A stretch of 47,877 bases of DNA from a virus. Below, one piece after another: positions 14,841 through 41,782 of this stretch (within the stretch, counting starts at the first letter, position 1; every line of letters begins with the position of its first letter). A model generated the notes under the pieces. That model did no database searches. It had not been told where the DNA came from and saw nothing but the letters and a program-made list of their open reading frames with translations. Position numbers and translations under genes: made by a program. The stretch lies in IMG/VR virus record IMGVR_UViG_3300030102_007074, positions 1-47,877 of that record. One strand, written 5' to 3'.

Positions 14841-14885
14841 TTAATCCTGTGGATCACATTGTATAACACACTCAAAGGAAAATCT

Positions 14886-24627: not shown

Positions 24628-25890
24628 ATGTCAGAGGAAATTAAAAAGAAAAAAATATTGGTGTTCTCCGATCACCCAATGTCGCCATCGGGTGTGGGAA
24701 CACAAACTAAATTCTTCATCGAAGCCCTGCTGAAAACTGGACGATATCAGTTCATTTCTTTTGGTGGGGCTGTGGACCATAAAGACTTCCGTCCACAAAA
24801 AACAAATGAATGGGGTGATGATTTAGTAATCTATCCGGTAAAGGGATATGGTGATCACAATATAGTTCGTGAAGCAGTTTGGATTGAACGACCAGATGCC
24901 GTATGGATTATGACAGACCCCCGGTTTTGGATTTGGATGTGGGAAATCGAGGAGGAAATCCGTTCTCATTGCCCACTAGTTTATTATCATGTGTGGGATA
25001 ACTATCCATATCCAATTTTTAATCGTAAGTTTTATCGTTCAAACGATGCTATTGCATCGATTAGCAAAGTAACCAAAGATATTGTTGATGTAGTTTCTCC
25101 AGAAACTAAGCACCGCCACATCCCTCACGCAGTGCCACAATACTTTAAACCTCTAAGTGATAAAGAACGAGAGAGTTTTAGAAAAGAAAATTTTGGAGAC
25201 TATGCAGATAAGTTTGTTTTATTTTGGAACAATAGAAATGCTAGAAGAAAACAAAGCGGTTCGCTTATTTTTTGGTTTAAGCGATTTATTGACAAAATTG
25301 GGCACGATAATGCTATGCTTATTATGCACACAAACACAAAGGACAATCATGGTCAAGATTTAGATGCAATTGTTCAGGAACTCCGTCTAACAGATGGACA
25401 AGTAAAATTCAGTAGACAAAAAATGCCTGCGGAACACTTGGCTAAAATATATGGCGCGGTCGATTGCACCATAAATATTTCTGACGCAGAGGGTTTCGGA
25501 CTTGGCACATTGGAGTCTCTAAGTTGCGGCACGCCCATTATTGTCAATATGACCGGAGGCTTACAAGAACAGGTCACTGATGGTAAAAAGTGGTTCGGAG
25601 TTGGTATTGAGCCAGCCTCCAAAGCGATCATTGGCTCTCAGGAAATACCTTTTATTCGTGAGGATAGATGTAACGCTGATGATGTGGTAAATGCTTTAGA
25701 AGAGATGTATAATAAAACTCATAAACAACGCCGCAAAATGGGCGAACTAGGGAGAAAACACGCTTTGAAAAACTACTCTTTTGAGAAGTTTGAAAAAGAT
25801 TGGGTGGAGTTTATGGACGAGATCATTGAAGAAAACGGTTCTTGGGAAACTCGTAAAAATTATAAGTCATGGGAGCAGATTACATTATGA
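24628..25890 (+). CDS. GT4-family glycosyltransferase
   Basis: 420 residues from ATG 24628 (AGGA eight bases upstream); an earlier in-frame ATG at 24586 lies inside the nuclease tail. GT-B fold: an N-terminal VFSDHPMSPSGVGTQTKFF loop for the acceptor, and a C-terminal NISDAEGFGLGTLESLSCG with the E-x7-E motif that binds the sugar nucleotide. It would transfer one sugar from an activated donor to a growing glycan. It opens the 17-kb glycan cluster. Donor and acceptor cannot be named. Confidence 0.8.
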   Translation: MSEEIKKKKILVFSDHPMSPSGVGTQTKFFIEALLKTGRYQFISFGGAVDHKDFRPQKTNEWGDDLVIYPVKGYGDHNIVREAVWIERPDAVWIMTDPRFWIWMWEIEEEIRSHCPLVYYHVWDNYPYPIFNRKFYRSNDAIASISKVTKDIVDVVSPETKHRHIPHAVPQYFKPLSDKERESFRKENFGDYADKFVLFWNNRNARRKQSGSLIFWFKRFIDKIGHDNAMLIMHTNTKDNHGQDLDAIVQELRLTDGQVKFSRQKMPAEHLAKIYGAVDCTINISDAEGFGLGTLESLSCGTPIIVNMTGGLQEQVTDGKKWFGVGIEPASKAIIGSQEIPFIREDRCNADDVVNALEEMYNKTHKQRRKMGELGRKHALKNYSFEKFEKDWVEFMDEIIEENGSWETRKNYKSWEQITL

Positions 25891-27146
25891 AAAAAGTTAT
25901 TGTAAAAGGACCACTACTCTCGCAAACTGGGTATGGTGAACAAGCTAGGTTTGCTCTCAGGGCGTTACGTTCAAGACCAGATTTGTTTGACCTTTACCTA
26001 ATGAATTTGGAATGGGGTAAATCAAATCATGTTATTGAAGACGATGAGGAAAGGGCTTGGATAATCGAACAGATTAAAAAGACAGCACAATTCATTAATT
26101 CTGGTAATGCTGCATTTGATATTTCGTTGCAAGTCACAATCCCAAATGAGTTTGAAAAAATGGCACCAATCAATGTTGGCTACACTGCTGGTATTGAAAC
26201 AACAAAAGTGGCACCTCAATGGTTGCAATTGACCAATGAAAATGTGGATAAGTTAATTGTTACTAGTAATCACGCTAAGAACGTATTTATCCAAACTGTG
26301 ACAATGGCACAAGATCAAAATGGAAATAAATTTCCTTATAAGTTGGACAAGCCTGTTGATGTTGTCAGTTATCCAGTAAAACCAAGCGAGACAAAAGAGG
26401 TGGAACTCGATTTACCACACGATTTTAATTTCTTTGTAACTTCTCAGTGGGGCGCAAGAAAGAATTTAGAAAATACAATCCGCTGGTTTGTGGAGGAAAA
26501 CATTGATCAAGAAGTTGGCTTAGTTATTAAAACCAACTCCATTAAAAATTCCATGATTGATAGAGAGTTCACATATCGCCGTCTTGCGGCTTTGTTATCG
26601 CCATATCCAGAGCGTAAGTGTTCTGTGGTGTTGCTACATGGATATATGTCTGAGGCTGAAATGCAATCGCTGTATAGACACGATAAAATCAAAGCATTGA
26701 TTAATATCGCTCACGGCGAAGGTTTTGGACTGCCACTATTTGATGCAGCCGCCGCTGGACTACCGATCATCACAGTTGGTTGGTCGGGTCAATGTGACTT
26801 TCTCTTTGTACCAGAGAAAGACAAAAAAGGTAAAATAAAACAAAAGGCAAAATTCCTAAAGGTAGATTATGACATAGCACCTGTACAGCCCGAGGCTCAT
26901 TGGGGTGGTGTGATTGAACCCGACTCATCTTGGGCACATGCTAAAGAGGGTTCATATAAAATGGCTCTTCGCAAAATGAGGAAAGAACACCACATTTATA
27001 GAGGTCTGGCTAAAGAACTTAAAAAATGGGTTAATAAAACATTTACTAGTGAAAACCAATATAAACAATTTGTAGAAGCGTTCGACTATGATTCTCCAGA
27101 TGTTTGGTTATCTGAACTAGGCGATATAGTGAAGGAATATGAGTAA
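25887..27146 (+). CDS. GT4-family glycosyltransferase
   Basis: 419 residues, ATGA overlap with the gene before. GPLLSQTGYGEQARFALRAL is a glycine-rich N-terminal loop, and IAHGEGFGLPLFDAAAAGLP the GT4 donor-site motif with E-x7-D in place of E-x7-E. The TSQWGARKNL region fits the start of the C-terminal domain. Related in type to the preceding enzyme but not a close duplicate. Role: a second step in the same glycan. Confidence 0.8.
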   Translation: MKKVIVKGPLLSQTGYGEQARFALRALRSRPDLFDLYLMNLEWGKSNHVIEDDEERAWIIEQIKKTAQFINSGNAAFDISLQVTIPNEFEKMAPINVGYTAGIETTKVAPQWLQLTNENVDKLIVTSNHAKNVFIQTVTMAQDQNGNKFPYKLDKPVDVVSYPVKPSETKEVELDLPHDFNFFVTSQWGARKNLENTIRWFVEENIDQEVGLVIKTNSIKNSMIDREFTYRRLAALLSPYPERKCSVVLLHGYMSEAEMQSLYRHDKIKALINIAHGEGFGLPLFDAAAAGLPIITVGWSGQCDFLFVPEKDKKGKIKQKAKFLKVDYDIAPVQPEAHWGGVIEPDSSWAHAKEGSYKMALRKMRKEHHIYRGLAKELKKWVNKTFTSENQYKQFVEAFDYDSPDVWLSELGDIVKEYE

Positions 27147-28767
27147 GAAAGTAGTCTTTGTGGCAGATTTTTTTGTAGAACAGGTTCTTGGCGGTGGGGA
27201 ACTAAACAACGAAGAACTGATAATTATGCTCAGAGATTCTGGCTACGAAGTTGAAAAAACAAACAGCAAAGACGTAACCAGTAAGTTTTTAGAAACAAAC
27301 AAGGAAAGTTTCTTTATAATTTCAAATTTTGTTTTTCTAGAACCTAACCATCGCAACTGGCTTACTAATAACGCACAATATGTTATTTACGAACACGACC
27401 ATAAGTATGTAAAGAGCAGAAACCCTGCGTTTCACAAAGATTTTGAAGTTCCAAGTTCTCTATTGTTGAACTTTAGGTTTTATAGAGAAGCGCAGAGTGT
27501 TATTTGCCAGAGTCAATTCCATAAATCCATAGTGCTAAAAAATATAAAAACTGAAAATGTCACTAGTGTTGATGGTAACTTGTGGTCTGAAAAATCTTTA
27601 GAACTATTGGAAAAACTTTCCTTAAAGAACAAAAAAGAGACCCACGCATCTGTTCTAGATTCTCCGTTTGCAAGTAAAAATACACCGAAAACTGTATCAT
27701 TCTGTAAGCATAAGGGCATAGAATTTGAATTAGTTAAAGATAACAACTACGAAAGATTTTTAGAAAAACTTAGTAATAATAAGAAATTTGTGTTTCTACC
27801 AACAACCCCTGAAACTTTGTCCCGTATTGTTTGTGAGGCAAGGATGATGGGGATGTCTGTTTTAACAAACGAATTGGTTGGTGCATGTCAGGAACCATGG
27901 TTCAAATTGAAGGGCGCTGAACTAATTGATGTTATGCGGACCAAAAGAAAAGAGATATTTGACACAATAGTTTCAGAGATTGAGACTCCAAAGCAAGCCA
28001 AACAGAATCCAAAAGTTAGCATAGTTACGACCTTTCACGACGGAGAGGAGTATTTGGATGGGTTTTTAAAAAATATTGTTGAACAGTCTCGGTTTAAAGA
28101 CTGTGAACTGGTTATTGTTGATGCAGCATCGTCTGGAAACGAAAAAAAATTGATTGAAAAATATCAAAAACAAAATCAAAACATAGTGTACATCAGGCTT
28201 GAAGAAAAATTGAAACCCACACCCTGTATCAATTTAGCCATACAAAAATCTAAAGGGGAGTACATCCACCTATCTTTAATTGATGATAGGAAATCTCCTA
28301 AAGCCGTTGAACTTCTAATTGAAGGTTTGGAAAAAAATATAGATGTGGGTCTGGTGTATGGTGACGTGTTTGTGTCTACCAAGCCAAATGAAACATATAA
28401 ACAAAATAATAAAAAAGTAAAATCAGAACACTCTTCATTTGAGTTTAGCAGGGAAAATATGATTAAGTGTCTTCCCGGTCCAATGCCAATGTGGCGCTAT
28501 AATCTGCATGAAGTTTTGGGATTTTTTGATGATCTAGAGTGCAACTATGCAGATGATTGGGAAATGTGGTTGAGGATGGTCCAACATGGTATCTCCTTCA
28601 AGAAAATCAAACAGCCTGTCGGTTTATATTTAACTGGTGGTCGTTCCCAAATACAAGACAATCTGGACCAACGTAAGGAAGAAGCAAAGTTATTCTTTAA
28701 ATATGCTAACGTTTTCGGTTACAATTACAATAAGTATTACAATTACTTTAACCAATTTATGAGATAA
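27139..28767 (+). CDS. Bifunctional glycosyltransferase: GT4-like plus GT2 domains
   Basis: 542 residues. Residues 1-285 resemble a reduced GT-B enzyme, with ADFFVEQVLGGGELNNEEL near the start and FLPTTPETLSRIVCEARMMG near 235. Residues about 295-540 are a GT2 (GT-A) domain: PKVSIVTTFHDGEEYLDGFL, ELVIVDAAS, SLIDDRKSP (metal-binding acidic pair), and a DDWEMWLRM segment near residue 475, typical of the catalytic D-W-E/D. Two transferases in one chain would add two sugars in sequence. It overlaps the previous gene by eight bases. Confidence 0.75.
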   Translation: MSKKVVFVADFFVEQVLGGGELNNEELIIMLRDSGYEVEKTNSKDVTSKFLETNKESFFIISNFVFLEPNHRNWLTNNAQYVIYEHDHKYVKSRNPAFHKDFEVPSSLLLNFRFYREAQSVICQSQFHKSIVLKNIKTENVTSVDGNLWSEKSLELLEKLSLKNKKETHASVLDSPFASKNTPKTVSFCKHKGIEFELVKDNNYERFLEKLSNNKKFVFLPTTPETLSRIVCEARMMGMSVLTNELVGACQEPWFKLKGAELIDVMRTKRKEIFDTIVSEIETPKQAKQNPKVSIVTTFHDGEEYLDGFLKNIVEQSRFKDCELVIVDAASSGNEKKLIEKYQKQNQNIVYIRLEEKLKPTPCINLAIQKSKGEYIHLSLIDDRKSPKAVELLIEGLEKNIDVGLVYGDVFVSTKPNETYKQNNKKVKSEHSSFEFSRENMIKCLPGPMPMWRYNLHEVLGFFDDLECNYADDWEMWLRMVQHGISFKKIKQPVGLYLTGGRSQIQDNLDQRKEEAKLFFKYANVFGYNYNKYYNYFNQFMR

Positions 28768-29176: not shown

Positions 29177-29465
29177 CGACCTCAAAGAATACTATCAGTA
29201 TTATCTAACGTTACATAAAAATAAAACCTGTAGGAGACTACACGCGCTTGGACAACTTGTAACAGTCGTGTTTTTAACTATAGTGTTGTACACTTGGACT
29301 TGGTATTTACTACCGCTAACACCATTCGTGGTTTATCCATTTGCTTGGAGTGGACACTATTTTTTTGAAAAGAATACTCCTGCCGCATTTTCAAATCCTC
29401 TGTGGGCAAAGGCGTGCGACTGGATGATGCTAAGAGATATGTTAACAGGGAGAATAGAATTATAA
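29163..29465 (+). CDS. DUF962/Mpo1-like membrane protein
   Basis: 100 residues. YYLTLHKNKTCRRLHALGQ, a two-helix membrane part (VVFLTIVLYTWTWYL; PFVVYPFAW), then GHYFFEKNTPAAFSNPLWA and a C-terminal MLTGRIEL match the DUF962 family. Yeast Mpo1 of this family is an iron-dependent dioxygenase acting on 2-hydroxy fatty acids. The family's His residues (LH, GH) are present. In a glycan cluster it could modify a lipid carrier or lipid A acyl chain, but that is a guess. Confidence 0.75.
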   Translation: MKEPSDLKEYYQYYLTLHKNKTCRRLHALGQLVTVVFLTIVLYTWTWYLLPLTPFVVYPFAWSGHYFFEKNTPAAFSNPLWAKACDWMMLRDMLTGRIEL

Positions 29466-30391
29466 TGAAAAAAGTATTGATTACCGGCGCAGCCGGATAT
29501 ATTGGTTCAGAACTGATCAATTATTTATTAAAACAAGATTATCAGATAGTGGCGCTAGATAATTTGATGTACGAAAAGACCTCACTATTGAGGTATGCTA
29601 GTGATTCAAGATTTTCCTTCGTAAAAGGCGATGTAAGGGACCATAAATTACTTAAAGAGTTAATGAACGATGTAGATGTTATTATCCCTCTAGCAGCACT
29701 TGTTGGCTTTCCATTGTGCGATAAAGACCCCGAAGGAGCAACCGCGATTAATTACGAAGCGAACAAGTTTATTGCGGACAATAAAACATCGGAACAAAAA
29801 GTTATTTATCCTTGCACAAATTCTGGATATGGCACCAACGAGGGAGTCTGCACCGAAGAGTCTCCCCTTCGACCTGTCTCGCTTTATGGCAAGACAAAGG
29901 TTGAAGCCGAAGAGGCATACAAAAATGTTGAGAACCATGTAACCTTTAGATTGGCAACGGTGTTCGGTCCTGCTGCTCGTATGCGAACTGATTTATTGGT
30001 TAATAACTTTGTATTGAGAACTCTGAGAGATAAACTAATAGTTTTGTATGAGTGCGAGTTTATGAGAAACTATGTTCATATCCACGATGTTTGTCGAGCG
30101 TTTATGTTTGTATTGGACAACTGGGACCATTGCAAGAATGAAACATATAACGTTGGTAATGATTCTTTAAACATGAATAAACTACAGTTAGCAGAGAAAA
30201 TAAAAGAACACTTACCGCTTGAAATTATGAAAGCAGAGTTCACCAGCGACCCAGACGTAAGAGATTATGTTGTTAGCAGCCAAAAAATTTATGACAAAGG
30301 ATTTAGTTGTAAGTATGATTTGGATGACGGCGTAAAACAATTGGTCAATGCCTATTCAATTATTGAAGAGCCGTGGTACGCAAACTACTGA
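29465..30391 (+). CDS. NAD-dependent sugar epimerase/dehydratase (extended SDR)
   Basis: 308 residues from ATG 29465. Rossmann motif TGAAGYIGSEL, then DVIIPLAA, the serine site CTNSGYG, the catalytic Y-x3-K in SLYGKTKVE, and RLATVFGP. It would oxidise or epimerise the sugar of a nucleotide sugar. The specificity (4-epimerase, 4,6-dehydratase or heptose epimerase) is not readable. In this cluster it could form the 4-keto sugar needed by the ColD-like enzyme. Confidence 0.85.
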   Translation: MKKVLITGAAGYIGSELINYLLKQDYQIVALDNLMYEKTSLLRYASDSRFSFVKGDVRDHKLLKELMNDVDVIIPLAALVGFPLCDKDPEGATAINYEANKFIADNKTSEQKVIYPCTNSGYGTNEGVCTEESPLRPVSLYGKTKVEAEEAYKNVENHVTFRLATVFGPAARMRTDLLVNNFVLRTLRDKLIVLYECEFMRNYVHIHDVCRAFMFVLDNWDHCKNETYNVGNDSLNMNKLQLAEKIKEHLPLEIMKAEFTSDPDVRDYVVSSQKIYDKGFSCKYDLDDGVKQLVNAYSIIEEPWYANY

Positions 30392-30398
30392 GGAAATT

Positions 30399-31916
30399 AT
30401 GAGTAAAAAACTAGACATATTGTTTGTTCATCCAAACGCATCTAAGAAAATTTATCAAGGATTGAGTGACGAACACTCTGCTATCGAACCGCCAATTTGG
30501 GCGGCAATGCTGGCAAACCACGTTCGTAGTGTGGGGTATTCTACAAAAATCCTTGATGCGGAAGCAGAACGGCTTAACTTTGAGTCTGCCGCAAAAGAAA
30601 TCGATTACATTAATCCTAGAATAGTGTGTTTTGTTGTTTATGGACAGCAACCATCGGCAGGAACTCAAAATATGGTCGGCGCTGTTGCTACAGCAGACGC
30701 TCTAAAAAATATCAACTCTGAACACAAAGTTCTTTTTGTTGGTCCACATGTTTCTGCTTTACCAATTGAAACCCTTAGTAATGAACCAAGTATTGACATG
30801 GTTTGTTTAAACGAGGGTGTATATACCATTTCAAATTTAGTAGCCAGTGATTTAAAAACAGAGAATCTTAGAAAAATAAATGGTTTAGCGTTTAAGGACG
30901 GCGACCAAATTGTTAGGAATGATCCAGAGCGGCTAGTCAAACGTACAGAATTAGAGCATGTCTTACCGGGAATGGCTTGGGATTTACTACCAGATATAAA
31001 CAAATACAGAACCGCAGGTTGGCACTCTTGGTCTAATAATACGGACAAGAGTCCTTTCGGAGCCATTTATACTAGCCTTGGATGTCCATATCGTTGTTCG
31101 TTCTGTATGATTAATATTATTAACAGGACTGATAACTCAAGCAACATATCAAGTGCTAATAGTAACGTGTTCCGCTGGTGGAATCCTGAATTTATCATTA
31201 AACAGTTTGATAAAATGGCTGAACTTGGGATTAAAAACGTTAAAATCGCAGACGAACTATTTGTCTTAAACCCAAGACACTTTTTAAAAATTTGTGAACT
31301 TCTGATAGAAAGAGATTACGGATTTAACATTTGGGCTTACTCTAGAATCGACACTTGTAAGCCAAGGTATCTTGAAACATTAAAAAAAGCCGGTGTTAAC
31401 TGGTTGGGACTTGGAATTGAAAATCCTAACGAGGATCTAAGAAAAGAAATACACAAAGATTCGTTTAAAGAGGTGAGAATTTATGATATAATGAATCATA
31501 TGAGAGACGCTGGAATTAACATTGCTGCGAATTACATTTTTGGATTACCTCACGATACGATGGAATCAATGGAGTCTACTTTAGATTTTGCAATGAATAA
31601 CGTAACTGAGATGACCAATATGTATTGTGCGATGGCTTATCCCGGTAGCCCTCTTCATCTGGAGGCGAAAACCAAAGGACTGACGTTGCCCTCCTCATAC
31701 GAAGGGTATAGTCAACACGCATATGAAACACTAAACTTGTCCACTGATAAATTAACTTCAGCAGAAATCTTAAAATTTCGTGATTATGCTTGGGACAAGT
31801 ATCACACCAGTGATAAATACTTGAATCTTTTAGAGAACAAGTTTGGTAAAAAAGCGAGAGAGAATATTGTTAATACAACAAAAATTAAACTTAAAAGAAA
31901 ACAACTAGGAGACTAA
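30399..31916 (+). CDS. Radical SAM protein with B12-binding-like N-terminal domain
   Basis: 505 residues from ATG 30399. Residues 1-190 look like the Rossmann B12-binding fold (DILFVHPNAS, FVGPHVSALP), but the cobalamin DxHxxG is not visible. The radical SAM Cys motif GCPYRCSFC has Cys229, Cys233 and Cys236. GLGIENPNEDLRKEI and YIFGLPHDTMESM are typical of the barrel. Such enzymes methylate or rearrange unactivated carbons. A sugar or lipid substrate is inferred from the neighbours. Confidence 0.8.
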   Translation: MSKKLDILFVHPNASKKIYQGLSDEHSAIEPPIWAAMLANHVRSVGYSTKILDAEAERLNFESAAKEIDYINPRIVCFVVYGQQPSAGTQNMVGAVATADALKNINSEHKVLFVGPHVSALPIETLSNEPSIDMVCLNEGVYTISNLVASDLKTENLRKINGLAFKDGDQIVRNDPERLVKRTELEHVLPGMAWDLLPDINKYRTAGWHSWSNNTDKSPFGAIYTSLGCPYRCSFCMINIINRTDNSSNISSANSNVFRWWNPEFIIKQFDKMAELGIKNVKIADELFVLNPRHFLKICELLIERDYGFNIWAYSRIDTCKPRYLETLKKAGVNWLGLGIENPNEDLRKEIHKDSFKEVRIYDIMNHMRDAGINIAANYIFGLPHDTMESMESTLDFAMNNVTEMTNMYCAMAYPGSPLHLEAKTKGLTLPSSYEGYSQHAYETLNLSTDKLTSAEILKFRDYAWDKYHTSDKYLNLLENKFGKKARENIVNTTKIKLKRKQLGD

Positions 31917-31917
31917 T

Positions 31918-32880
31918 ATGCCAGCAGATAGTAAAAGCAAAGTAACAATTTTAAAGTTGCGTAGACAAAAGAAAAAGGGAACTAAGACAGTTTTAACCAC
32001 TGCATATGATTACCCACAAGCCATCATTGCTGATGGTGCGGGTGTTGATTGTGTGCTTGTTGGGGACTCTTTGGGTATGACCACGCTCGGTCACAAAACA
32101 ACCATCCCTGTTACAATGGACGATATGGTTCGCTCTTGTGAGGCGGTATCGAGAGGAGCAAAAAATGCTTTTCTTATTGGCGATATGCCATATATGTCTT
32201 ACCAGATTTCCAACGAAGAGGCTGTGCATAACGCAGGCAGATTTGTTCGGGCTGGTATGGACTGTGTTAAAGTCGAGGGAGCCATGATTGACAGAATCAA
32301 GGCAATTTCAGATGCTGGAATCATGGTTATGAGCCACCTCGGCTTGACTCCGCACACAAGGGCGAAACTCGGTGGATACCGAGTTCAGGGTAAAACAGCC
32401 AAGCAAGCAGAGATTATCTTGCAACAGGCTAAAGACCTACAAGAAGCGGGATGCACATTTCTTTTGCTAGAGGGTATGCCTCGCGAATCAGCCAAGATGA
32501 TTGCAGATAACCTTGAGATTCCTGTTTATGGTATCGGTGCTGGAGACTTGGTAGATGGGCAATTGGTGATCTTCCATGACTTGATGGGTCTGTTCTGGGA
32601 GTTCAAATCAAAGTTTGTCAAGCGATACTGTGAAGCAGGACAGATCATGCAAAACGCATTAAAACAATATGCAGAGGAAGTAAGAAATGGTCAATTTCCC
32701 GCAGAAGAAAACTTTTATGCTATTAAAGAAGAGGAATTGGAACAACTTTTAAGCCAAGGAAACTGGAAGCACGACAAGGTTGTTTACGAGACAGACCAAG
32801 GTTTTCCAACAAACCATTCAGCAACACCAAATACAACAACGAAAAAGGCGTCTTTGCCACAGCACGGGATTGAGCATTAA
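31918..32880 (+). CDS. panB: Ketopantoate hydroxymethyltransferase (PanB) family
   Basis: 320 residues. TAYDYPQAIIADGAGVDCVL, VGDSLGMTTLGHKTT and IGDMPYMSYQIS hold the two metal-binding Asp residues. KVEGA, SHLGLTPH, GGYRVQGKT and LLLEGMP complete the PanB signature. The enzyme adds a hydroxymethyl group from methylene-tetrahydrofolate to 2-oxoisovalerate. It has about 55 residues beyond the usual C-terminus, rich in Thr, Asn and His. Within a glycan cluster it may act on a different 2-oxo acid or feed a sugar side-group. Confidence 0.85.
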   Translation: MPADSKSKVTILKLRRQKKKGTKTVLTTAYDYPQAIIADGAGVDCVLVGDSLGMTTLGHKTTIPVTMDDMVRSCEAVSRGAKNAFLIGDMPYMSYQISNEEAVHNAGRFVRAGMDCVKVEGAMIDRIKAISDAGIMVMSHLGLTPHTRAKLGGYRVQGKTAKQAEIILQQAKDLQEAGCTFLLLEGMPRESAKMIADNLEIPVYGIGAGDLVDGQLVIFHDLMGLFWEFKSKFVKRYCEAGQIMQNALKQYAEEVRNGQFPAEENFYAIKEEELEQLLSQGNWKHDKVVYETDQGFPTNHSATPNTTTKKASLPQHGIEH

Positions 32881-32881
32881 A

Positions 32882-34729
32882 ATGGAATTAAAAGTAGCAG
32901 ACTACATCATTAATCACCTTTCGGATATCGGCGTTGACAACGTATTTGTTGTGTATGGCGCTGCAAACGGCAATCTAATTGATGCATTTACTAGAAATGA
33001 TAAAATTGAATATGTAGCCACCATGCATGAGCAGGGCGGTGGTTTTGCAGCAGAGGGATATGCGAAAGTATCAAAAAATATAGGTGTAGCCATCGCTACT
33101 AGTGGTCCCGGTGGCATGAATCTAGTGACATCGGCTGGTAATTGTTTTTACGATTCAGTGCCCTGCTTGTTCCTGACAGGACAAATTAAAACCAAATATA
33201 TGCGTCCTGACAAGTCTATTAGACAAATTGGCTTCCAAGAAGCCGATATGGTGGGTGTGTTTAAACCAGTTACGAAATATACAAAATTGGTAGAGAACCC
33301 CGAAGACATTAGGTATGAGTTGGAGAAAGCAATTTACATTGCAAAATCGGGCAGACCGGGACCAGTTCATTTAGATTTGCCAATTGACGTACAGAAGGCT
33401 TTGATTAACCCAGAAGAATTACTTGGGTTTGATGAGCATTTGGCTACGACTTCTTATAACTTGGATGTTGTAAACAGACAGTTAGATAAGTTTTTAGAAG
33501 ATTTGCAACAGTCTAAAAGACCCTGTTTGATGATCGGCGGTGGTGTCCGTTTAGCAAACGCCGAAAAAGACATTTTAGAATTGGCAGAATTGTTAAAAAT
33601 TCCTTGTTTCCCAACTTGGAATGCTTTGGATATAATTTGTTCAGACTTTGAATACTATGGCGGTAGAATCGGCACCTATGGTGGAGCCGGTCGAAACTTT
33701 GGGATTCAAAATAGTGATTTACTGCTCGCTATCGGTAGTAGAATTTCTGGTAGAATTACAGGTGGTGAACCTCACCTATTTGCCAGAGAAGCAAAAAAAT
33801 ATATGGTAGACGTTGACGCACCTGCAATGCAAAGAAAAATGCAACAGTTACCATTTGATGAATGTATTTTGTGTGATGCAAAATTGTTTATAAAACTTCT
33901 CAAGGACAGAATACAAAAAACAAAATTAAATGATTATTCGGAATGGATGGATAGAGTCGCAGGCTGGAGGGAAAAATATGATCCAGTAAGAGACGATATG
34001 TTTGAACCAACCGAGTTCGTCAATCCATATGCCTTTTTAAGAATTCTTTCAGAGGAGATGGGAGAGAATGATATTTTGGTAGGTGATTGTGGTGGAAACA
34101 TTGTTGCTATCAACCACTCCTTTAAAACAAAGACTGGTCAACATTACTTTACAAACAACGGTAACTCACCGATGGGTTTTTCTTTGGCTGGCGCTATGGG
34201 TGCCCGTTACGCAGCCCCAAATAGCAGGAAGGTGGTTTGCGTTATCGGCGACGGCGGCATGGCTATGAACTTGCAAGAGTTGCAGACCATTGTTAATTAC
34301 AACATTGATATCAAAATAATTGTTTTAAATAACCACATTTATGGTATTACAAAGGCTTTCCAAGAGGTTAACTTTGAAGGTCGTTCAGAAGCCTGTGGAC
34401 CAAAGGGATATGCTCCACCAGATTTTATTAAGTTGGCAAAGGCTTTCGGTATTCAGCCAGCCATCATTGATAGCGGCGAGGATTACGATGTTGTTCGTAA
34501 ACAAATTAGAGAATTACTAGATAGCGAAGGACCAGTTCTTTGTGACTTGAACTGTCACGAGTGGCACACATACGAGCCAAAAATTGTGGGCTGGTCAACG
34601 CCAATTGAGGATATGTATCCCTATTTGCCAAGAGATGAGTTTCACTCTAATATGCTAATTGAGCCTCTGGAGATTTCAAAAAATCCACCAATGCCTAGTA
34701 TTTTTAACGTTACCGAAAGTATGGAGTGA
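32882..34729 (+). CDS. Thiamine-diphosphate enzyme, acetolactate-synthase-like
   Basis: 615 residues, starting one base after panB. N-terminal Pyr domain with the catalytic Glu in MHEQGGGFAAEGYAK, a central domain with PCLMIGGGVR, and a C-terminal PP domain with VIGDGGMAMNLQELQTIV then LNNHIYG, the GDG...N motif that binds ThDP and magnesium. The length and order are those of acetolactate synthase-type enzymes, which join a two-carbon unit from pyruvate to a carbonyl. YerE of the yersiniose pathway is a relative acting on a 4-keto-3,6-dideoxy sugar. The ColD-like gene downstream makes such a role possible here. Confidence 0.85.
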   Translation: MELKVADYIINHLSDIGVDNVFVVYGAANGNLIDAFTRNDKIEYVATMHEQGGGFAAEGYAKVSKNIGVAIATSGPGGMNLVTSAGNCFYDSVPCLFLTGQIKTKYMRPDKSIRQIGFQEADMVGVFKPVTKYTKLVENPEDIRYELEKAIYIAKSGRPGPVHLDLPIDVQKALINPEELLGFDEHLATTSYNLDVVNRQLDKFLEDLQQSKRPCLMIGGGVRLANAEKDILELAELLKIPCFPTWNALDIICSDFEYYGGRIGTYGGAGRNFGIQNSDLLLAIGSRISGRITGGEPHLFAREAKKYMVDVDAPAMQRKMQQLPFDECILCDAKLFIKLLKDRIQKTKLNDYSEWMDRVAGWREKYDPVRDDMFEPTEFVNPYAFLRILSEEMGENDILVGDCGGNIVAINHSFKTKTGQHYFTNNGNSPMGFSLAGAMGARYAAPNSRKVVCVIGDGGMAMNLQELQTIVNYNIDIKIIVLNNHIYGITKAFQEVNFEGRSEACGPKGYAPPDFIKLAKAFGIQPAIIDSGEDYDVVRKQIRELLDSEGPVLCDLNCHEWHTYEPKIVGWSTPIEDMYPYLPRDEFHSNMLIEPLEISKNPPMPSIFNVTESME

Positions 34730-34730
34730 G

Positions 34731-35258
34731 ATGAGATTCACAAAAAACCACTCGGAAACAAATATTCCCGGTGTGTTTACAGGACAGTATGATTATTTTT
34801 CAGATTTGCGTGGTCAAATATGGACGATACATAGCGAAGAGGGATATCTGGCTAAATTTGTTGAAGATAAAATAACAATTTCTAACAAAGATGTCCTTCG
34901 TGGTCTTCATGGAGATAAAGAGACCGACAAACTGATATCGTGTTTGCACGGCAAAATCCAACTAGTTGTTGTAGATGCTCGTAAAAACAGCCCCACACAC
35001 GGCACTGTAGAAACGTTTTTCTTGTCTGCTGAAGAGCCAAGTTATGTTTTTGTGCCTGCGGGGTGTTTAAACGGGCATTTGTGCTTGAGTGATAAATGTA
35101 TTTTTTGGTACAAGTGGTCACAGAAATATACTGGAGCGAGTACACAAGAAACTGTTTTGTGGAATGATGAGGACTTAAAAATATCTTGGGCTTGTGAAAA
35201 CCCCATACTATCCAAAAGAGACGAAAACGGAAGTTTATTTAAAGAGGTAAGAATATGA
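34731..35258 (+). CDS. RmlC-like dTDP-sugar 3,5-epimerase cupin
   Basis: 175 residues, ATG one base after the previous stop. DLRGQIWTIHS, then VLRGLHGD carries the catalytic His, and QLVVVDARKNSPTHG and VPAGCLNGHLCLSD fit the cupin barrel of RmlC. Such enzymes epimerise 4-keto sugars at carbons 3 and 5, or only at one. It would act on a 4-keto-6-deoxy nucleotide sugar. It overlaps the next gene by four bases. Confidence 0.8.
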   Translation: MRFTKNHSETNIPGVFTGQYDYFSDLRGQIWTIHSEEGYLAKFVEDKITISNKDVLRGLHGDKETDKLISCLHGKIQLVVVDARKNSPTHGTVETFFLSAEEPSYVFVPAGCLNGHLCLSDKCIFWYKWSQKYTGASTQETVLWNDEDLKISWACENPILSKRDENGSLFKEVRI

Positions 35259-36169
35259 AGTTATTTGTATATGACAACGCTAAGGGTCATGTTCACGATG
35301 AAACAGAACACTATAAAAATACAGTGCCCCTGAGTAAAAGAGGGATTGAACAACATTTTGAAATTACAAAAAACCCAAACGAAGCAGATTACTTTTATAT
35401 GGGACAAATCGGCAACGATTCTTTTAGAGCCTATTCTCCAGAAACTTTTAAATACTTCAGCAAACACGCACATAAACACATTTGTGATGTTGAAGGAGAG
35501 GGCGGTGTGCAAATTGTTGATTGGCTGAAGGACGGAATTATTACAACGATGGGTCCATTAAAAGGACAAAATATTCCAAGATTATTTACAAGACCAACCT
35601 TTTCTACACTTTTGGTTGATAACGTCAATAACAACACTGAGCGCTTTGAACTACCTGATAATAAAACTTTTGGCTTTCGCGGGTATATGAACTGCAAGGC
35701 TCGCGGGTTTATGGTTTATGTATTACACCATATCGCTGAGATAGAAAAAGATATTCATATTAATAAGGTCTGGTCTGGTCCAGCCGCAATTGGCTCTGAC
35801 ACTCATAAAGTCTATGTGGATACAATGCTTTCAAATGCAGTATCTCTTTGTCCCAGAGGTAGTGGTATCGACAGTGTACGCTTTTTAGAAAGTTGTTATT
35901 ATAATAGGGTTCCTGTGATAATCTCTGACTTGGATTATCATCTAGTTGGCGAGGACCATCACGACATGAGTTTTTGTTTTAGGCTTAATATTCAGGATTA
36001 TAATCAGGAAAAATTGACTAAAGAATTGCTTGAAATTAATAATACTTCTCAAGAGGAACTACAGTTTAGGGCATCTAAGGCAAAAGAATATTTTGATCAA
36101 GTTATCGTAAAATATTTTGAAGATCCAACAGCATATTTTTTGGACTGGTTATCAAAACAAAATGACTAA
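35255..36169 (+). CDS. Exostosin-like (GT47-type) glycosyltransferase
   Basis: 304 residues. The C-terminal half contains SLCPRGSGIDSVRFLESCYY then NRVPVIISD, the donor-binding motif of exostosin-type enzymes. The N-terminal half is the acceptor part, with KNPNEADYFYMG. The enzyme would add one sugar. Family known from eukaryotes and bacterial surface clusters. No transmembrane anchor. Confidence 0.65.
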   Translation: MKLFVYDNAKGHVHDETEHYKNTVPLSKRGIEQHFEITKNPNEADYFYMGQIGNDSFRAYSPETFKYFSKHAHKHICDVEGEGGVQIVDWLKDGIITTMGPLKGQNIPRLFTRPTFSTLLVDNVNNNTERFELPDNKTFGFRGYMNCKARGFMVYVLHHIAEIEKDIHINKVWSGPAAIGSDTHKVYVDTMLSNAVSLCPRGSGIDSVRFLESCYYNRVPVIISDLDYHLVGEDHHDMSFCFRLNIQDYNQEKLTKELLEINNTSQEELQFRASKAKEYFDQVIVKYFEDPTAYFLDWLSKQND

Positions 36170-37337
36170 GAGTAAGATTTTTAATCCCCAAGCAAAGATT
36201 TACGCGAATGTAGACAGGGTTATCCAACATATCGAAACGGGCTACGCCCCACCAGTCTTGGTAGAAGTTGATCCAAGCAATGCCTGTAATCATTCTTGTA
36301 ATTTTTGTTTATCTGCTTACATCCACTTTGCCAAATATAAAGGCACAGAAACCTTTTCTCGCGCTATGATGTCGAGAGAGGTTTTAATGCAACTGTGCGA
36401 AGATTTTGTAAATATGGGAGTCAGAGCGGTTAATTGGACGGGTGGTGGTGAACCAACCCTTAATAGACATTTGAAAGAAGCGATAGAGTATTGTGGTTCT
36501 CATGGAATAAAAATGGGCATTTTTACAAACGGCTCATTGCTTGACAAAAGAGATTTGTTTGAAACGATGGTAGACCACATGACTTGGGTAAGATTTTCTA
36601 TCGACGCTGGAACAAAAGAAACCTACAACGATGTTCGTATTGCCAAGAAAGGACAAGATTGGGATAAAATGCTATCCAACCTTGGTCGTCTTGTTGAGGT
36701 AAACAACTCCAAAGGTAAGAAAATAGACATAGGCGTTGGGTACGTCGTATCTCCAGATACATATAAAGAAATTGTTGATTTTGCAAAAGTCTTTAAAGAA
36801 TTTGATTTAACATATTGTCAGTACAAACCTGAAATTATTATCAGAGAAAAGGGCGGTCAACAACGCAGTCTAGAATTCTGGCGCGATGAGGTACAACCTA
36901 GATTAGACGAAGCAAAAGAAATCTTAGGAGACAAGTTTCAGGTTAATGGTTATAAACTGGAAGACTTGGCACTCGATCGAGAAAAGTTTGGTAGGGATTA
37001 TAAGAGGTGTATTGGTTCTCAAATTTCTCCTTGTGTCGGTGCAGATGGACATGTCTATGTCTGTACCAATCATCGAGGCTGGAAACAATACAGTTATGGC
37101 AATCTGTACGACACCTCTTTCCAAGATATCTGGACAGACATAACTAAAAGACAACGAGTTATGAATCAAATTGAGAATGTTGAGTGTTTTAAAAATTGTA
37201 CAAAACTTTGTAAACCGCACGAAAGTAACAAAGCGGCTTGGTCAATTTACAAAACCCTTGATGATAAAAAGAAAGAAAAACTATTACAAGAACAAAAACA
37301 AATCAGGAAAGAGATAAAACATCCAGATTTTATATGA
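36162..37337 (+). CDS. Radical SAM/SPASM-type protein
   Basis: 391 residues, eight-base overlap with the gene before; start at 36162. CNHSCNFC with Cys42, Cys46 and Cys49 binds the radical SAM cluster. NWTGGGEPTLNRH and GIFTNGSLL are the GGE and substrate strands. Further cysteines (KRCIGSQISPC, VYVCTNHRG, ECFKNCTKLC) suggest an auxiliary SPASM-type cluster. Such enzymes may modify peptides or sugars. This is the second radical SAM protein in the cluster. Confidence 0.8.
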   Translation: MTKSKIFNPQAKIYANVDRVIQHIETGYAPPVLVEVDPSNACNHSCNFCLSAYIHFAKYKGTETFSRAMMSREVLMQLCEDFVNMGVRAVNWTGGGEPTLNRHLKEAIEYCGSHGIKMGIFTNGSLLDKRDLFETMVDHMTWVRFSIDAGTKETYNDVRIAKKGQDWDKMLSNLGRLVEVNNSKGKKIDIGVGYVVSPDTYKEIVDFAKVFKEFDLTYCQYKPEIIIREKGGQQRSLEFWRDEVQPRLDEAKEILGDKFQVNGYKLEDLALDREKFGRDYKRCIGSQISPCVGADGHVYVCTNHRGWKQYSYGNLYDTSFQDIWTDITKRQRVMNQIENVECFKNCTKLCKPHESNKAAWSIYKTLDDKKKEKLLQEQKQIRKEIKHPDFI

Positions 37338-37344
37338 GGTTAAA

Positions 37345-38301
37345 ATGAGAAAAAGAAAAGTATTAGTAGTCTACAACACTTGTGGAATCAATGGAGATAA
37401 TACAGAGTGGTATATTCATTGTTTAAACAGTATTTTGTCACAAAAATTTAAAGGCTTTAGAGTTGTCTTTTCTTCCTGTCTCAACAGCAAAGAGTGCATT
37501 AAAGAAATCGTTGGTACATTTAAGGACAAGATATCTTATTGTTTTCACTCTGAACCGCACACCGTTAATATAACTTTTAACAAGGCTGTTCGCGATGCGG
37601 TGAATGAATATGGTGAGTTTGAGAGTTATGTTTACGTTGATTCTGGATGTACGTTTGGAGATAACAAAAATATTTTATCCAATCTATATCAAAGCCATAA
37701 AACTAATGGCGCACAAATGGTAGCCCTGCAAAGCGATACGGATGAAGGTTTGCAGGTTTTAGGACCAGATTTTTTGTATGAATCAAAAGATGTGCAAATA
37801 ACAAAAGAGGACTTTACTATTCCGATTGGCAAGGCGATAAATCTACATGTTCAGTTGTTTGGAAATAAGTTGTATAAAAGTTATAAAGGAAAAATAATAC
37901 CTGACGTTTTTGCCGCTTATTGCACGGAGTCAACTTTTAGTTTTCTTACTGCCGCTGTCGCAAGCAAGTGGATAATATTAAAAGATTTGCAAGTCAAACA
38001 CCTCAAGGGCGTCGATGGTGCATCATCATCTCAACCACATGGCTCGCTAGTTTATGGCAATAGTTGGAATAATCTTCTTTATGGGCGCGATGCTAGAGAT
38101 TTTATATTCAATCAGGATGCCATTCAAAGTGGACTTGGATATGAAGAATGTAACAAAATAATGATGCATAAAGAAGATGCCTTTGACAAAGATGGCTTCA
38201 GTAAAAACCCAATTAAACTGAGAAGAAACATAAATAAATATTTTTTCTTATCCGAACAAGAATTGAACTACGATACCATTAAAAGTTTATTCGTACCATA
38301 G
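37345..38301 (+). CDS. GT2-like glycosyltransferase
   Basis: 318 residues. KVLVVYNTCGINGD, LNSILSQKFKGFRVVFSSCL and NKAVRDAVNEYGEFESYVYV followed by DSGC look like a GT-A fold with an acidic motif at the end of a strand. Later parts (HLKGVDGASSSQPHGSL) are less typical. Possibly a glycosyltransferase of the GT2 type, or a related sugar-phosphate transferase. The gene is clear, the family less so. Confidence 0.6.
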   Translation: MRKRKVLVVYNTCGINGDNTEWYIHCLNSILSQKFKGFRVVFSSCLNSKECIKEIVGTFKDKISYCFHSEPHTVNITFNKAVRDAVNEYGEFESYVYVDSGCTFGDNKNILSNLYQSHKTNGAQMVALQSDTDEGLQVLGPDFLYESKDVQITKEDFTIPIGKAINLHVQLFGNKLYKSYKGKIIPDVFAAYCTESTFSFLTAAVASKWIILKDLQVKHLKGVDGASSSQPHGSLVYGNSWNNLLYGRDARDFIFNQDAIQSGLGYEECNKIMMHKEDAFDKDGFSKNPIKLRRNINKYFFLSEQELNYDTIKSLFVP

Positions 38302-38307: not shown

Positions 38308-38326
38308 AAATTAAATGGAGACAAAC

Positions 38327-39487
38327 ATGATTAAATACCCACTAGCAAAAGAAACGATTAACGACGATGATATTGATGCCTTGTGCAACTGGTTAAAAAC
38401 ATATCCACGTTTAACCAAAGGAGACTTGACGCCTCAACTTGAGGATGAATGGGCACAATTCATTGGCACAAAGTATTCAGTCTTTAATAATTCTGGCTCA
38501 TCTGCAAACCTTCTAATGGTATACGCAGCGATGTTGGCAGGCAAAATTAAAAATAAAAAGATTGCAGTCCCATCGGTTGGATGGGTCACAACTATTTCGC
38601 CAGCGATTCAATTTGGTCTACAACCAATTATGGTCGGCGCTGATCCAAAAACATATGGTATGGATTTAGATGAACTTGAGGAAGTGTGTAAAAGGGATAA
38701 TCCTGACGCAGTTATTTTTGTACAGGTTCTTGGAGTTCCACATTACAAAGAAAGACTGTTGGCTCTTAAAGAGAAATACGGCTTTGTATTGTTGGAAGAC
38801 GCTTGTGCCGCCCTCGGCGCTGAATATGCAGATGGCTCAAAAGTGGGTACAGTGGGAGATATGTCCTCATTCTCATTTTATTTTGGACACCAATTATCCA
38901 CAATCGAAGGTGGCATGGTTAATACAGACGATAAAGAATTGTATGATATCCTGTTGATGCTGCGCTCTCACGGATGGGGAAAGGACTTGGATAAAGAAAC
39001 ATATGATAAATTAATTAGCGACAACGGAGTTGATGATTTTCACAAGCCGTTCACGTTCTTTATCGCAGGATTTAATCTCAGGTCCACCGACCTTCAGGCT
39101 TTTATTGGCTTGAGGCAGATGAAGAAAGCAAAGTGGGTCTCCGATCGAAGAAACGAGAACCATCTTCGTTACGCAGAAAATCTTAGAGGTGTTGTAGATT
39201 TCCAAGAGTGGGGAGACGACAAACCAGTTTCTATTTCATTCGGCGCACTTGCCTCTTCAAAAGAACATCGTACTAGAATAGTTAACCGGCTCGTCGAAGA
39301 AGGAATTGAAACTAGAATTTATAGCGCCGGTAATCTTGGGAGACACCCCTTCTGGGTCAAGCGCTACGGTGAATATAGAGAACAACAGAGTGATTTGATT
39401 CATGAAACAGGCTTCTTCTTGCCAAACTATCCAGAACTAACATTGGAGGAAGTTGATTTTATCTGTGATGTAGTGAAGGGAGTATAA
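38327..39487 (+). CDS. ColD-like sugar 3-dehydratase (PLP lysine replaced by histidine)
   Basis: 386 residues from ATG 38327, favoured by GGAG seven bases upstream (ATG 38315 lacks a ribosome site). The start MIKYPLAKETINDDD and NNSGSSANLLM, LEDACAALGAEY and EGGMVNTDD fit the DegT/DnrJ/EryC1 fold. At the place of the PLP-binding lysine the protein has His188 (SFYFGHQLSTIEGG). That swap defines the 3-dehydratases ColD and RfbH/E1, which remove the 3-hydroxyl of a 4-keto-6-deoxy sugar, giving 3,6-dideoxy sugars. The overall similarity to ColD is strong. ColD itself regenerates its coenzyme with glutamate; E1 needs a reductase, and none is seen here. Confidence 0.82.
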   Translation: MIKYPLAKETINDDDIDALCNWLKTYPRLTKGDLTPQLEDEWAQFIGTKYSVFNNSGSSANLLMVYAAMLAGKIKNKKIAVPSVGWVTTISPAIQFGLQPIMVGADPKTYGMDLDELEEVCKRDNPDAVIFVQVLGVPHYKERLLALKEKYGFVLLEDACAALGAEYADGSKVGTVGDMSSFSFYFGHQLSTIEGGMVNTDDKELYDILLMLRSHGWGKDLDKETYDKLISDNGVDDFHKPFTFFIAGFNLRSTDLQAFIGLRQMKKAKWVSDRRNENHLRYAENLRGVVDFQEWGDDKPVSISFGALASSKEHRTRIVNRLVEEGIETRIYSAGNLGRHPFWVKRYGEYREQQSDLIHETGFFLPNYPELTLEEVDFICDVVKGV

Positions 39488-40227
39488 TGTCAAAAATTCT
39501 TATAATTGGTGAAAGTTGTTTAGATGTATTTACATATGGAACTTGCGATAGGCTCTGTCCAGAGGCACCAGTACCCGTTTTCAAATCAAATTATGTGAAC
39601 GAGAATCAGGGCATGGCGATGAACGTGTATAACAACGTAGAATCCCTTGGCGTTAAGTCTGATTTAATGACTAACACAAATTGGAAACAGATCAAAAAAA
39701 CTAGATTCATCGACGAAAGAACGAATCACATGTTTATCAGGGTCGATACAAACGATGATGACTATCAAAAATGTAAGATTAAAAAGATTAAATTTGACAA
39801 TTATGACGCAGTTGTAATATCTGATTACAATAAAGGATTTATATCAGAAGAAGATATAAGATATGTTAGCAAGAATCACCCGTTAACATTCTTAGACACT
39901 AAAAAGACATTGGGCGAGTGGTGTTCTGATATTACATTTATTAAAATTAACCTCGTGGAATACGAAAGGTCTAAGAAATTTGTGGATGAAACCCATAAAG
40001 GAGATGTTATTATTACGATGGGTTCCGAGGGTTGCCGTTACGGCGGCATAACTTATAGAGTCCCGAAAGTAGAAATCAAAGATACTTCAGGTGCAGGAGA
40101 CACTTTTTTGGCTTCATTCGTAGCCAAGTACCTTGATGGAAAAAACATTGAAAAATCAATTGAATTCGCAAATAAGTGTTCAACCCATGTTGTTCAAAAG
40201 CGTGGGGTAAGCGTGGTAAGTAAGTAA
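39487..40227 (+). CDS. HldE/HldA-like heptose-7-phosphate kinase
   Basis: 246 residues, one-base overlap. ILIIGESCLDVFTYGTCDRL then CPEAPVPVF is the N-terminal HldE signature. VVISDYNKGF and DTSGAGDTFLASF, with the PfkB catalytic Asp, confirm a ribokinase-family sugar kinase. It is shorter than the usual 310-residue domain, mainly in the part between about residue 50 and 90. It would phosphorylate heptose-7-phosphate at carbon 1. Confidence 0.85.
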   Translation: MSKILIIGESCLDVFTYGTCDRLCPEAPVPVFKSNYVNENQGMAMNVYNNVESLGVKSDLMTNTNWKQIKKTRFIDERTNHMFIRVDTNDDDYQKCKIKKIKFDNYDAVVISDYNKGFISEEDIRYVSKNHPLTFLDTKKTLGEWCSDITFIKINLVEYERSKKFVDETHKGDVIITMGSEGCRYGGITYRVPKVEIKDTSGAGDTFLASFVAKYLDGKNIEKSIEFANKCSTHVVQKRGVSVVSK

Positions 40228-40745
40228 TGCCTGCAATCTTGATAAACGGTAGAGGTCAACTTGGCGAGGAACTAAAGAAAAGAATTTCTCACCCATTGTA
40301 TTCGTACAAGAGTCAAGAGGTATTGATATATCACACTTGGAACATAGATGACAAAACAGAACCGGCACAAGAAAGAGAATATTTGAAGTTTGTCGAGTTT
40401 GTTAAAGAGAATCGTGAAAAGCGGATTGTTTTTATTTCAACATATTCTGATAAAGACAATTACTATAATTTTTACAAACACAAAGCAGAGTCTTATGTTA
40501 TTTTAAATTCTGTCGATGCGTTGGTTATAAGATTACCAACAATAGTTGGCAAGGGCGTGATAACAGATTTTATAAACGATACTAGCGTCCCATACGGTAC
40601 AATGAACTTAATTACAAAATCTCGCGCCGCAACAGAAGTTTTGAATCATGCCTTCAAAAAAACGTTAACAAAAAGCGTGACAATTGCAGGAGAGTCTATA
40701 AGTGCTTTTTTGATAAAAGGCATTGTTGATGAGATAAAAAAATGA
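40227..40745 (+). CDS. Reduced SDR-like protein
   Basis: 172 residues. ILINGRGQLGEELKKR is a Rossmann loop, RIVFISTYSD the serine strand, YYNFYKHKAE carries a Y-x3-K, and VIRLPTIVGKG matches RmlD/epimerase proteins. It is only about half the usual length and lacks most of the sugar domain. It may be a small reductase or a partner of another SDR. It overlaps the next gene by four bases. Confidence 0.6.
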   Translation: MPAILINGRGQLGEELKKRISHPLYSYKSQEVLIYHTWNIDDKTEPAQEREYLKFVEFVKENREKRIVFISTYSDKDNYYNFYKHKAESYVILNSVDALVIRLPTIVGKGVITDFINDTSVPYGTMNLITKSRAATEVLNHAFKKTLTKSVTIAGESISAFLIKGIVDEIKK

Positions 40746-41128
40746 AAACAATTTTTACTAACGGATGTTTTGACGTTTTACATCGCGGTCACTTTGAATT
40801 ATTAAAACACTGTCACTCGCTTGGTAGGGTGGTTGTTGGAGTAAATACGGACAGCAGTATCAAAAGATTAAAGGGTGCTGATAGACCATTTTTTAACGAG
40901 ATAGACAGAGCATTTATGTTGGAGTGCTGCAAGTACGTTGATGAAGTTATATTGTTTGATGACGACACACCATATAATTTAATAAAACAGATAAAACCTG
41001 ATATAATAGTAAAAGGTGGAGATTATAAACCGAGTCAGGTTGTTGGAAGTGACTTGTCAGAAGTAGTTATTTTTAATTACATTCAAGGATATTCTACAAG
41101 CAATACTTTGGCAGGAGTTAGAAAATGA
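40742..41128 (+). CDS. HldE/HldC-like heptose-1-phosphate nucleotidylyltransferase
   Basis: 128 residues. FTNGCFDVLHRGHFELL holds the HxGH nucleotide motif; VNTDSSIKRLKG, FDDDTPYNLI, VKGGDYKP and a C-terminal GYSTSNTL follow the C-terminal half of HldE closely. It would join a nucleotide (ADP in HldE) to heptose-1-phosphate. Here it is split from the kinase by one gene. Confidence 0.88.
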   Translation: MKTIFTNGCFDVLHRGHFELLKHCHSLGRVVVGVNTDSSIKRLKGADRPFFNEIDRAFMLECCKYVDEVILFDDDTPYNLIKQIKPDIIVKGGDYKPSQVVGSDLSEVVIFNYIQGYSTSNTLAGVRK

Positions 41129-41457
41129 AGTACGTTTTTGACATAGACGGAACTATTTGTACAAATTCATCACCAGAGTACCAAAACGCAAAACCATTTA
41201 AGGATAGGATACAAAAAATAAACGAATTATACGATAATGGACATACCATAATCTTTTTAACAGCACGAGGCATGGGCAGACACAAAAACAACCAATCCGC
41301 AGCGATTACGGAGTTTTATAAGTTAACAACGGAACAATTAAACTCTTGGGGTGTTAAACATCACGAGTTGTTCCTTGGAAAACCAAGCGGCGACATTTAT
41401 GTAGACGATAAAGGAATAAAAGATGAAGACTTCTTTAGAAATGAACTTTGTCCCTAA
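41125..41457 (+). CDS. Small HAD phosphatase of sugar clusters
   Basis: 110 residues, four-base overlap. MKYVFDIDGTICTNSSPEY has the HAD DxDGT nucleophile; HTIIFLTARGMG has the threonine; IYVDDKGI the last acidic pair. Such compact HADs accompany capsule and heptose genes. It could remove the 7-phosphate from heptose bisphosphate in the place of GmhB, though it is smaller than GmhB. Its end overlaps the cupin gene by 35 bases. Confidence 0.7.
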   Translation: MKYVFDIDGTICTNSSPEYQNAKPFKDRIQKINELYDNGHTIIFLTARGMGRHKNNQSAAITEFYKLTTEQLNSWGVKHHELFLGKPSGDIYVDDKGIKDEDFFRNELCP

Positions 41458-41782
41458 AGGATGGGGATTTGAAAAATGGATAGTAAACTGTGATGAATAT
41501 TGTGGTAAGTTGCTTTATTTTGTCAAAGGAAAAAGGTGTTCTTGGCACTATCACAAATTGAAAGACGAAGTTTTCTATGTTCAGTCTGGAAAGTTGTTGG
41601 TGAAGTATTCGGAAGAGGATGATCTTGAAAAAGCATGGACGATTACTTTGGAGAGAGGAGACAACTTTCACGTTTACCGAGGTTTACGACACCAAATGAT
41701 TGCCCTTGAAGACACTGAATTATTTGAGTTTTCTACTCAACATTTCGATGAAGACAGTTACAGAATTATAAAAGGAGATTAA
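41423..41782 (+). CDS. Cupin sugar-phosphate isomerase-like protein
   Basis: 119 residues from ATG 41423, favoured by AAAGGA upstream although this overlaps the HAD gene by 35 bases (ATG 41441 has no ribosome site). NFVPKGWGFEKWIV, KRCSWHYHKLKDEVFYV then GKLLVKY, and GLRHQMIALED supply the His and Glu ligands of a cupin. HAD-plus-cupin pairs are often seen in phage and surface sugar clusters. The substrate is unknown; the family includes mannose-6-phosphate isomerase-like proteins. Confidence 0.7.
   Translation: MKTSLEMNFVPKGWGFEKWIVNCDEYCGKLLYFVKGKRCSWHYHKLKDEVFYVQSGKLLVKYSEEDDLEKAWTITLERGDNFHVYRGLRHQMIALEDTELFEFSTQHFDEDSYRIIKGD

Follow-up and report, generated by a model that had tools for sequence, protein, structure and literature searches.

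A five-gene module within a large sugar-gene cluster

The window, that is the whole stretch of DNA analysed here, is a fragmentary contig of 47,877 bases, and at 39487-41457 it carries four open reading frames on the plus strand whose start and stop codons overlap by 1-4 bases: a compact HldA-like kinase of the PfkB family, a compact SDR protein, an HldC-like nucleotidyltransferase and an EcbF/BcbF-type HAD phosphatase (Table 1). The initial annotation had placed a four-gene set here, with the SDR between kinase and nucleotidyltransferase and the HAD last, and the reading frames confirm this arrangement. It had also described the kinase and nucleotidyltransferase as the split halves of HldE; the two are indeed separate genes, but are better named HldA-like and HldC-like. 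Gene order varies among phages, with the nucleotidyltransferase preceding the kinase in P-SSM2 and S-CAM1 and the order kinase-SDR-nucleotidyltransferase in S-SM2 and the window, and because the order of kinase and nucleotidyltransferase differs in this way, the pair is not one gene that got cut. A cupin gene overlapping the HAD gene is the fifth gene of the module.

Table 1. Coordinates of the module, the surrounding sugar-gene cluster and two further genes of the window
Feature	Position	Strand	Family matches and other remarks
Adenylosuccinate synthetase	14826-15884		
Three glycosyltransferases (two GT1/GT4-like, one GT2)	24628-28767	+	family search
Mpo1-like protein, 100 aa	29163-29465		PF06127
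NAD-dependent epimerase	29465-30391	+	family search
B12-binding radical SAM protein	30393-31916	+	family search
PanB-like ketopantoate hydroxymethyltransferase	31918-32880	+	PF02548, E=3e-99
Three-domain TPP-dependent enzyme	32876-34729	+	PF02775, PF02776, PF00205
RmlC-like 3,5-epimerase	34659-35258	+	PF00908, E=5e-39
GT47-like glycosyltransferase	35255-36169	+	weak match, PF03016, E=4e-4, below cut-off
Radical SAM/SPASM protein	36165-37337	+	PF04055, PF13186
Conserved cluster protein	37345-38301	+	no family match; homologue in G024:C3
DegT/RfbH-like PLP enzyme	38315-39487	+	PF01041; RfbH, E=4e-58
Compact HldA-like PfkB kinase	39487-40227	+	PF00294, TIGR02198
Compact SDR protein, 172 aa	40227-40745	+	S and YxxxK kept; homologues and model fold
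HldC-like nucleotidyltransferase, 128 aa	40742-41128	+	TIGR02199; HxGH motif
EcbF/BcbF-type HAD phosphatase, 110 aa	41125-41457	+	TIGR01689; DxDxT, K and DD motifs
Metallocupin	41423-41782	+	Cupin_2, phrog_7851, T4-GC 307; HxH-E-H ligands

The sugar-gene cluster to which these genes belong is far larger than four genes and extends from about 24.6 to 41.8 kb. By eye, the RfbH-like protein has a histidine (in SFYFGHQ) at the position of the PLP-binding lysine of aminotransferases, as do 3-dehydratases of the RfbH/ColD type, and the conserved protein encoded at 37345-38301 is probably a glycosyltransferase. Further upstream, a PanB-like enzyme is followed by the three-domain TPP-dependent enzyme, a pair that may carry out a branched-sugar step; three related clusters (L025, L030 and L033) have a two-part E1/transketolase-like enzyme in its place. 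The Mpo1-like protein is encoded near the start of the glycan cassette, and at another locus (L097) a similar protein, identified by eye, lies directly upstream of the kinase. Elsewhere in the window, an adenylosuccinate synthetase matches a phage family annotated as 2-aminoadenine-type; the aspartate of its YGDCGKG loop is kept (by eye), and the enzyme may be PurA-like or PurZ-like.

Families, folds and catalytic residues

The kinase matches PF00294 (E=1e-20), and its best family by far is TIGR02198 (rfaE_dom_I; E=1e-34), with a score of 120 bits that falls under the 345-bit cut-off. It measures 246 aa, compared with about 300-315 aa in HldE and HldA, and lacks a segment of about 25 residues around HldE positions 74-100 as well as a shorter insert, both of which are also missing from the compact relatives compared; the G and D at HldE 74-76 are lost. 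In alignment it nevertheless keeps most of the residues conserved among 26 full-length HldE/HldA kinases, including R22, P25, P28, P30, N46, N50, K71, R73, R85 and D87, along with SDYxKG, N155, E158 and GAGD, and it retains the motif PEAPVPV. The closest PDB fold to its AlphaFold model (pLDDT 93.8) found by Foldseek is Burkholderia cenocepacia HldA (4e8y, E=1.6e-18); Burkholderia HldA structures occupy the first seven ranks of the PDB matches, with ribokinases below. Judged from alignment and model, the kinase looks compact yet intact. For the nucleotidyltransferase, TIGR02199 (rfaE_dom_II) is the best family (E=1e-41; 142 bits, under the 181.5-bit cut-off); the protein is 42% identical to the C-terminal domain of Salmonella HldE and has both the HxGH motif and the GGDY loop in the alignment. 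By sequence, kinase and nucleotidyltransferase are thus nearest to heptose enzymes, the kinase also by fold.

The HAD protein matches TIGR01689 (EcbF-BcbF; E=5e-14) with 52 bits against a cut-off of 162 bits, has the HAD motifs, and finds 9iqw and 1xpj in the PDB; at two other loci (L022 and L072) the HAD is fused to the nucleotidyltransferase. An assignment of the HAD as GmhB was rejected, since the canonical GmhB model TIGR00213 matches nothing in 20 records (the window and 19 related ones) and detects the E. coli control. The name 'phosphoheptose isomerase' that PHROG 1238 and GenBank give to the EcbF-type HAD of many cyanophages looks wrong and is misleading. The earlier reading, that the genes supply a kinase, a phosphatase and a nucleotidyltransferase for making a nucleotide sugar, is upheld.

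The SDR reading frame matched nothing in the family libraries at the thresholds used, nor in the phage collection, and its assignment comes from homologues and a model. Five homologous reading frames of 175-185 aa in IMG/VR phage contigs keep S, YxxxK and a degenerate GxGQLG motif, and the model (pLDDT 82.6) resembles extended SDRs such as GDP-fucose synthase and RmlD. HldD was considered and set aside: the protein has no family match, is too short, and its fold is nearest to the GDP-fucose synthase and RmlD types. The cupin keeps its HxH-E-H ligands; its profile matches D-lyxose, mannose-6-phosphate and L-ribose isomerases and also other cupins, including quercetinase and oxalate decarboxylase, and the homologue in L025 matches MannoseP_isomer and Lyx_isomer weakly. 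The names 'cysteine dioxygenase' and 'nucleotidyltransferase', under which the cupin appears in PHROG 7851 and GenBank for many cyanophages, look wrong and misleading as well.

Recurrence of the module in phages and cells

The kinase is encoded on at least 578 IMG/VR stretches or contigs. In S-SM2, P-TIM68, P-SSM2, S-CAM1, S-CAM3, S-SSM7, S-T4, Sf-CH5 and Sf-FS3 its family is linked with those of the nucleotidyltransferase, the HAD and the cupin. Catalytic motifs are kept in 149 of 150 kinases, 109 of 117 nucleotidyltransferases, 106 of 107 HADs and 131 of 132 cupins; these proportions, from 109/117 to 149/150, together with the E-values exclude chance. The lineage of the window itself was recognised by its late sigma gene; of 24 distinct cupin-seeded contigs in this lineage, 13 carry kinase, nucleotidyltransferase, HAD and cupin upstream of the sigma gene.

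The glycan cassette is mobile and passes between unrelated phages. A Prochlorococcus single-cell genome contains a T4-like phage contig of 130.6 kb, G024:C3, in which 14 window genes between 28769 and 41782 have counterparts (27-77% identity); none of the window genes outside this block of 28.8-41.8 kb matched it. A classification of the window itself as a cyanophage was not retained: blastn of 42.2-47.9 kb matched no phage record, and what G024:C3 shares is glycan genes only. In S-CAM1, P-SSM2, S-SSM7 and Sf-FS3 the neighbours of the module are tail-fibre, structural or neck genes, and carbamoyltransferases and often 2OG oxygenases lie alongside. This position in relatives suggests that the sugar may decorate the virion.

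Of 80 cupin-seeded IMG/VR loci, 48 contain the kinase, the nucleotidyltransferase and the HAD in a range of 7 kb, and 25 contain neither an HldA-like nor an HddA kinase over the same range; some of these 25 adjoin sialic-acid-like genes (by eye). Phage Bellamy and its relatives have an HddA-like kinase (best curated model, E=7e-83) and an HddC-like nucleotidyltransferase, and the cupin, often with the HAD, lies between the two, the order being HddA-HAD-cupin-HddC at L186, L187 and L189. No GmhA was found near the kinase at these seven HddA loci, and the two clusters in which a SIS-type GmhA is present lack a cupin of their own. Phage-type heptose clusters with a GHMP kinase, a SIS-type GmhA, a HAD-nucleotidyltransferase fusion and an epimerase occur at L004:17568-20644 and L116:9258-12346.

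Compact kinases are also cellular. In many cellular genomes the neighbours of the kinase are an E1/transketolase-like enzyme and an alcohol dehydrogenase, and no heptose genes were seen nearby; L101, L103, L106, L112, L114 and L119, from Patescibacteria and other cellular genomes, pair it with the E1/transketolase-like enzyme, and with an alcohol dehydrogenase where this was read. The patescibacterial locus L114 contains the compact kinase, GmhA, GmhB, an HldC-like gene and HldD in one stretch of 16.7 kb.

Proposed pathway, alternatives and known systems

We consider it reasonably probable that these five overlapping genes together produce a single nucleotide-activated sugar, destined for a glycan that the phage encodes. 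The genes themselves, their families, the conserved catalytic residues and the recurrent linkage are observed, and from them we infer substrate, nucleotide, order of steps and destination. The HldA-like kinase would phosphorylate C1 of an aldose phosphate, most likely of the heptose-7-phosphate type, the HAD would take off the other phosphate, and the HldC-like enzyme would attach a nucleotide, AMP being the probable one; an intermediate would be isomerised, epimerised or reduced by the SDR and probably by the cupin too. The glycosyltransferases of the cluster would then decorate the virion or the host surface with the sugar, and the module itself belongs to the mobile components of glycan clusters in marine phages. 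In favour of this pathway are the agreement of family, fold and residues, the recurrent linkage, the HAD-nucleotidyltransferase fusions, the L114 locus, the company that HAD and cupin keep with HddA and HddC, and the position of the module near tail-fibre, structural or neck genes in relatives; against it are the missing GmhA and GmhB in the relatives tested, the scores below cut-off and the cellular kinases found with an E1/transketolase-like enzyme.

The bacterial ADP-heptose pathway runs GmhA-HldE-GmhB-HldD, and its GmhA step converts sedoheptulose-7-phosphate to heptose-7-phosphate. A search found no GmhA in the window, in agreement with the initial annotation, and none in nine of nine complete module-bearing cyanophage genomes, the same search being positive in SynMITS9220M01. 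The proposal of an ADP-heptose-type pathway thus survives in part: kinase and nucleotidyltransferase are nearest to heptose enzymes, but the HAD is not GmhB and the nine complete relatives lack GmhA. Heptose is plausible as the sugar, and HAD and cupin may stand in for GmhB and GmhA.

A less likely alternative is that the module activates a sugar other than heptose, the HldA/HldC ancestry having been kept and the substrate being another aldose or ketose phosphate supplied by the TPP enzyme, a dehydrogenase and the SDR. This would agree with the absence of GmhA from the complete cyanophages and with 34 loci in which a fused or two-part E1/transketolase-like enzyme lies directly upstream of the kinase; only 6 of these 34 kinases have the HldE-like PEAP, and 25 have PDxP. 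The module is moreover present on L119, a 250-kb contig with actinobacterial-looking genes, and the genome of L119 gave no GmhA match. However, the window kinase has PEAPVPV and no E1-type enzyme adjoining it, and HAD and cupin are found with HddA too, which the best curated model identifies as a heptose kinase.

This last association bears on a more specific idea, which we advance tentatively and think rather doubtful, namely that marine phages possess a full nucleotide-heptose pathway assembled from non-orthologous enzymes, with the cupin for GmhA, the EcbF-type HAD for GmhB, and either an ADP-type branch (compact HldA and HldC) or a GDP-type branch (HddA and HddC). Two kinase/nucleotidyltransferase pairs that are not homologous share HAD and cupin, which is what one would expect if these two carry out the isomerase and phosphatase steps common to both branches, but a strict replacement of GmhA by the cupin is weakened by the cupin loci that have neither heptose kinase. 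If the idea is true, a phage could put heptose on the surface of a host that makes none. The question is thereby sharpened to which enzymes replace GmhA and GmhB, if the sugar is heptose at all.

It is improbable that the module serves canonical ADP-heptose synthesis, in which the host would give GmhA and GmhB and the phage would add kinase and nucleotidyltransferase, feeding the host LPS core. That the two phage enzymes are HldE-like speaks for it, but of 151 genomes from the Prochlorococcus/Synechococcus family, to which the Prochlorococcus carrying the related phage G024:C3 belongs, only 28 contain a GmhA-like match, and host supply therefore cannot be assumed; the single-cell genome with that phage has no GmhA-like match. 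Cyanobacterial LPS has been described as free of heptose and Kdo (PMC4390846), a point that would apply if the host of the window phage is a cyanobacterium, and no GT9 heptosyltransferase was found in the window, a fragment. These points speak against a use in host LPS core. Nothing supports the suggestion of an ADP-heptose immune signal, which should be dropped, since the genes are in keeping with a marine phage glycan module, of which there are many. Functionless stuffer DNA, considered for LPS genes of large cyanophages (PMC3037559), would suit the patchy distribution and frequent rearrangement, but is highly improbable for genes whose catalytic motifs are kept in all four families and whose linkage recurs across lineages.

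Compared with the bacterial ADP-heptose pathway, the window shares the families and residues of kinase and nucleotidyltransferase, but no GmhA, GmhB or GT9 was found in it, and it encodes a separate compact kinase, an EcbF-type HAD and a cupin. With the GDP-heptose route of Bellamy and its relatives it has HAD and cupin in common, whereas the GHMP kinase and NTP_transferase of that route are non-homologous to its own enzymes. Closest are the cyanophages P-SSM2, S-SM2 and S-SSM7, with T4-GCs 304, 305, 306, 307 and 308; seven LPS genes, including T4-GCs 304, 305, 307 and 308, co-occur in three cyanophages and are perhaps functionally linked (PMC3037559, 2010). The kinase, nucleotidyltransferase, HAD and cupin of the window are of these families and lie just as close together, likewise with no GmhA, but the window belongs to another phage lineage, its late genes having no DNA match to the phage collection, and has the compact SDR instead of the T4-GC 308 epimerase. 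A 2021 review of cyanophage clusters (PMC7824862) lists PfkB kinases, HIGH-superfamily nucleotidyltransferases, cupin sugar isomerases and HAD phosphatases and describes the opening steps as NDP-sugar synthesis; the window shares all four with the NDP-sugar/capsule clusters of jumbo cyanophages, as well as epimerases and glycosyltransferases. That review nowhere uses the word 'heptose', and the present analysis addresses the relation to HldA and HldC and the GmhA/GmhB gap. The initial idea of a phage version of such a pathway is not new either, since both papers describe this module (PMC3037559, PMC7824862); virion decoration is plausible from gene position in relatives. The HldA-like kinase occurs in hundreds of ocean phages, often alongside the HldC-like partner, together with HAD and cupin, and with no GmhA or GmhB in those tested. 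We conclude that the module was already known from cyanophages and that the window most likely adds a further phage example, an NDP-sugar module of HldA/HldC ancestry whose product goes into a glycan encoded by the phage.
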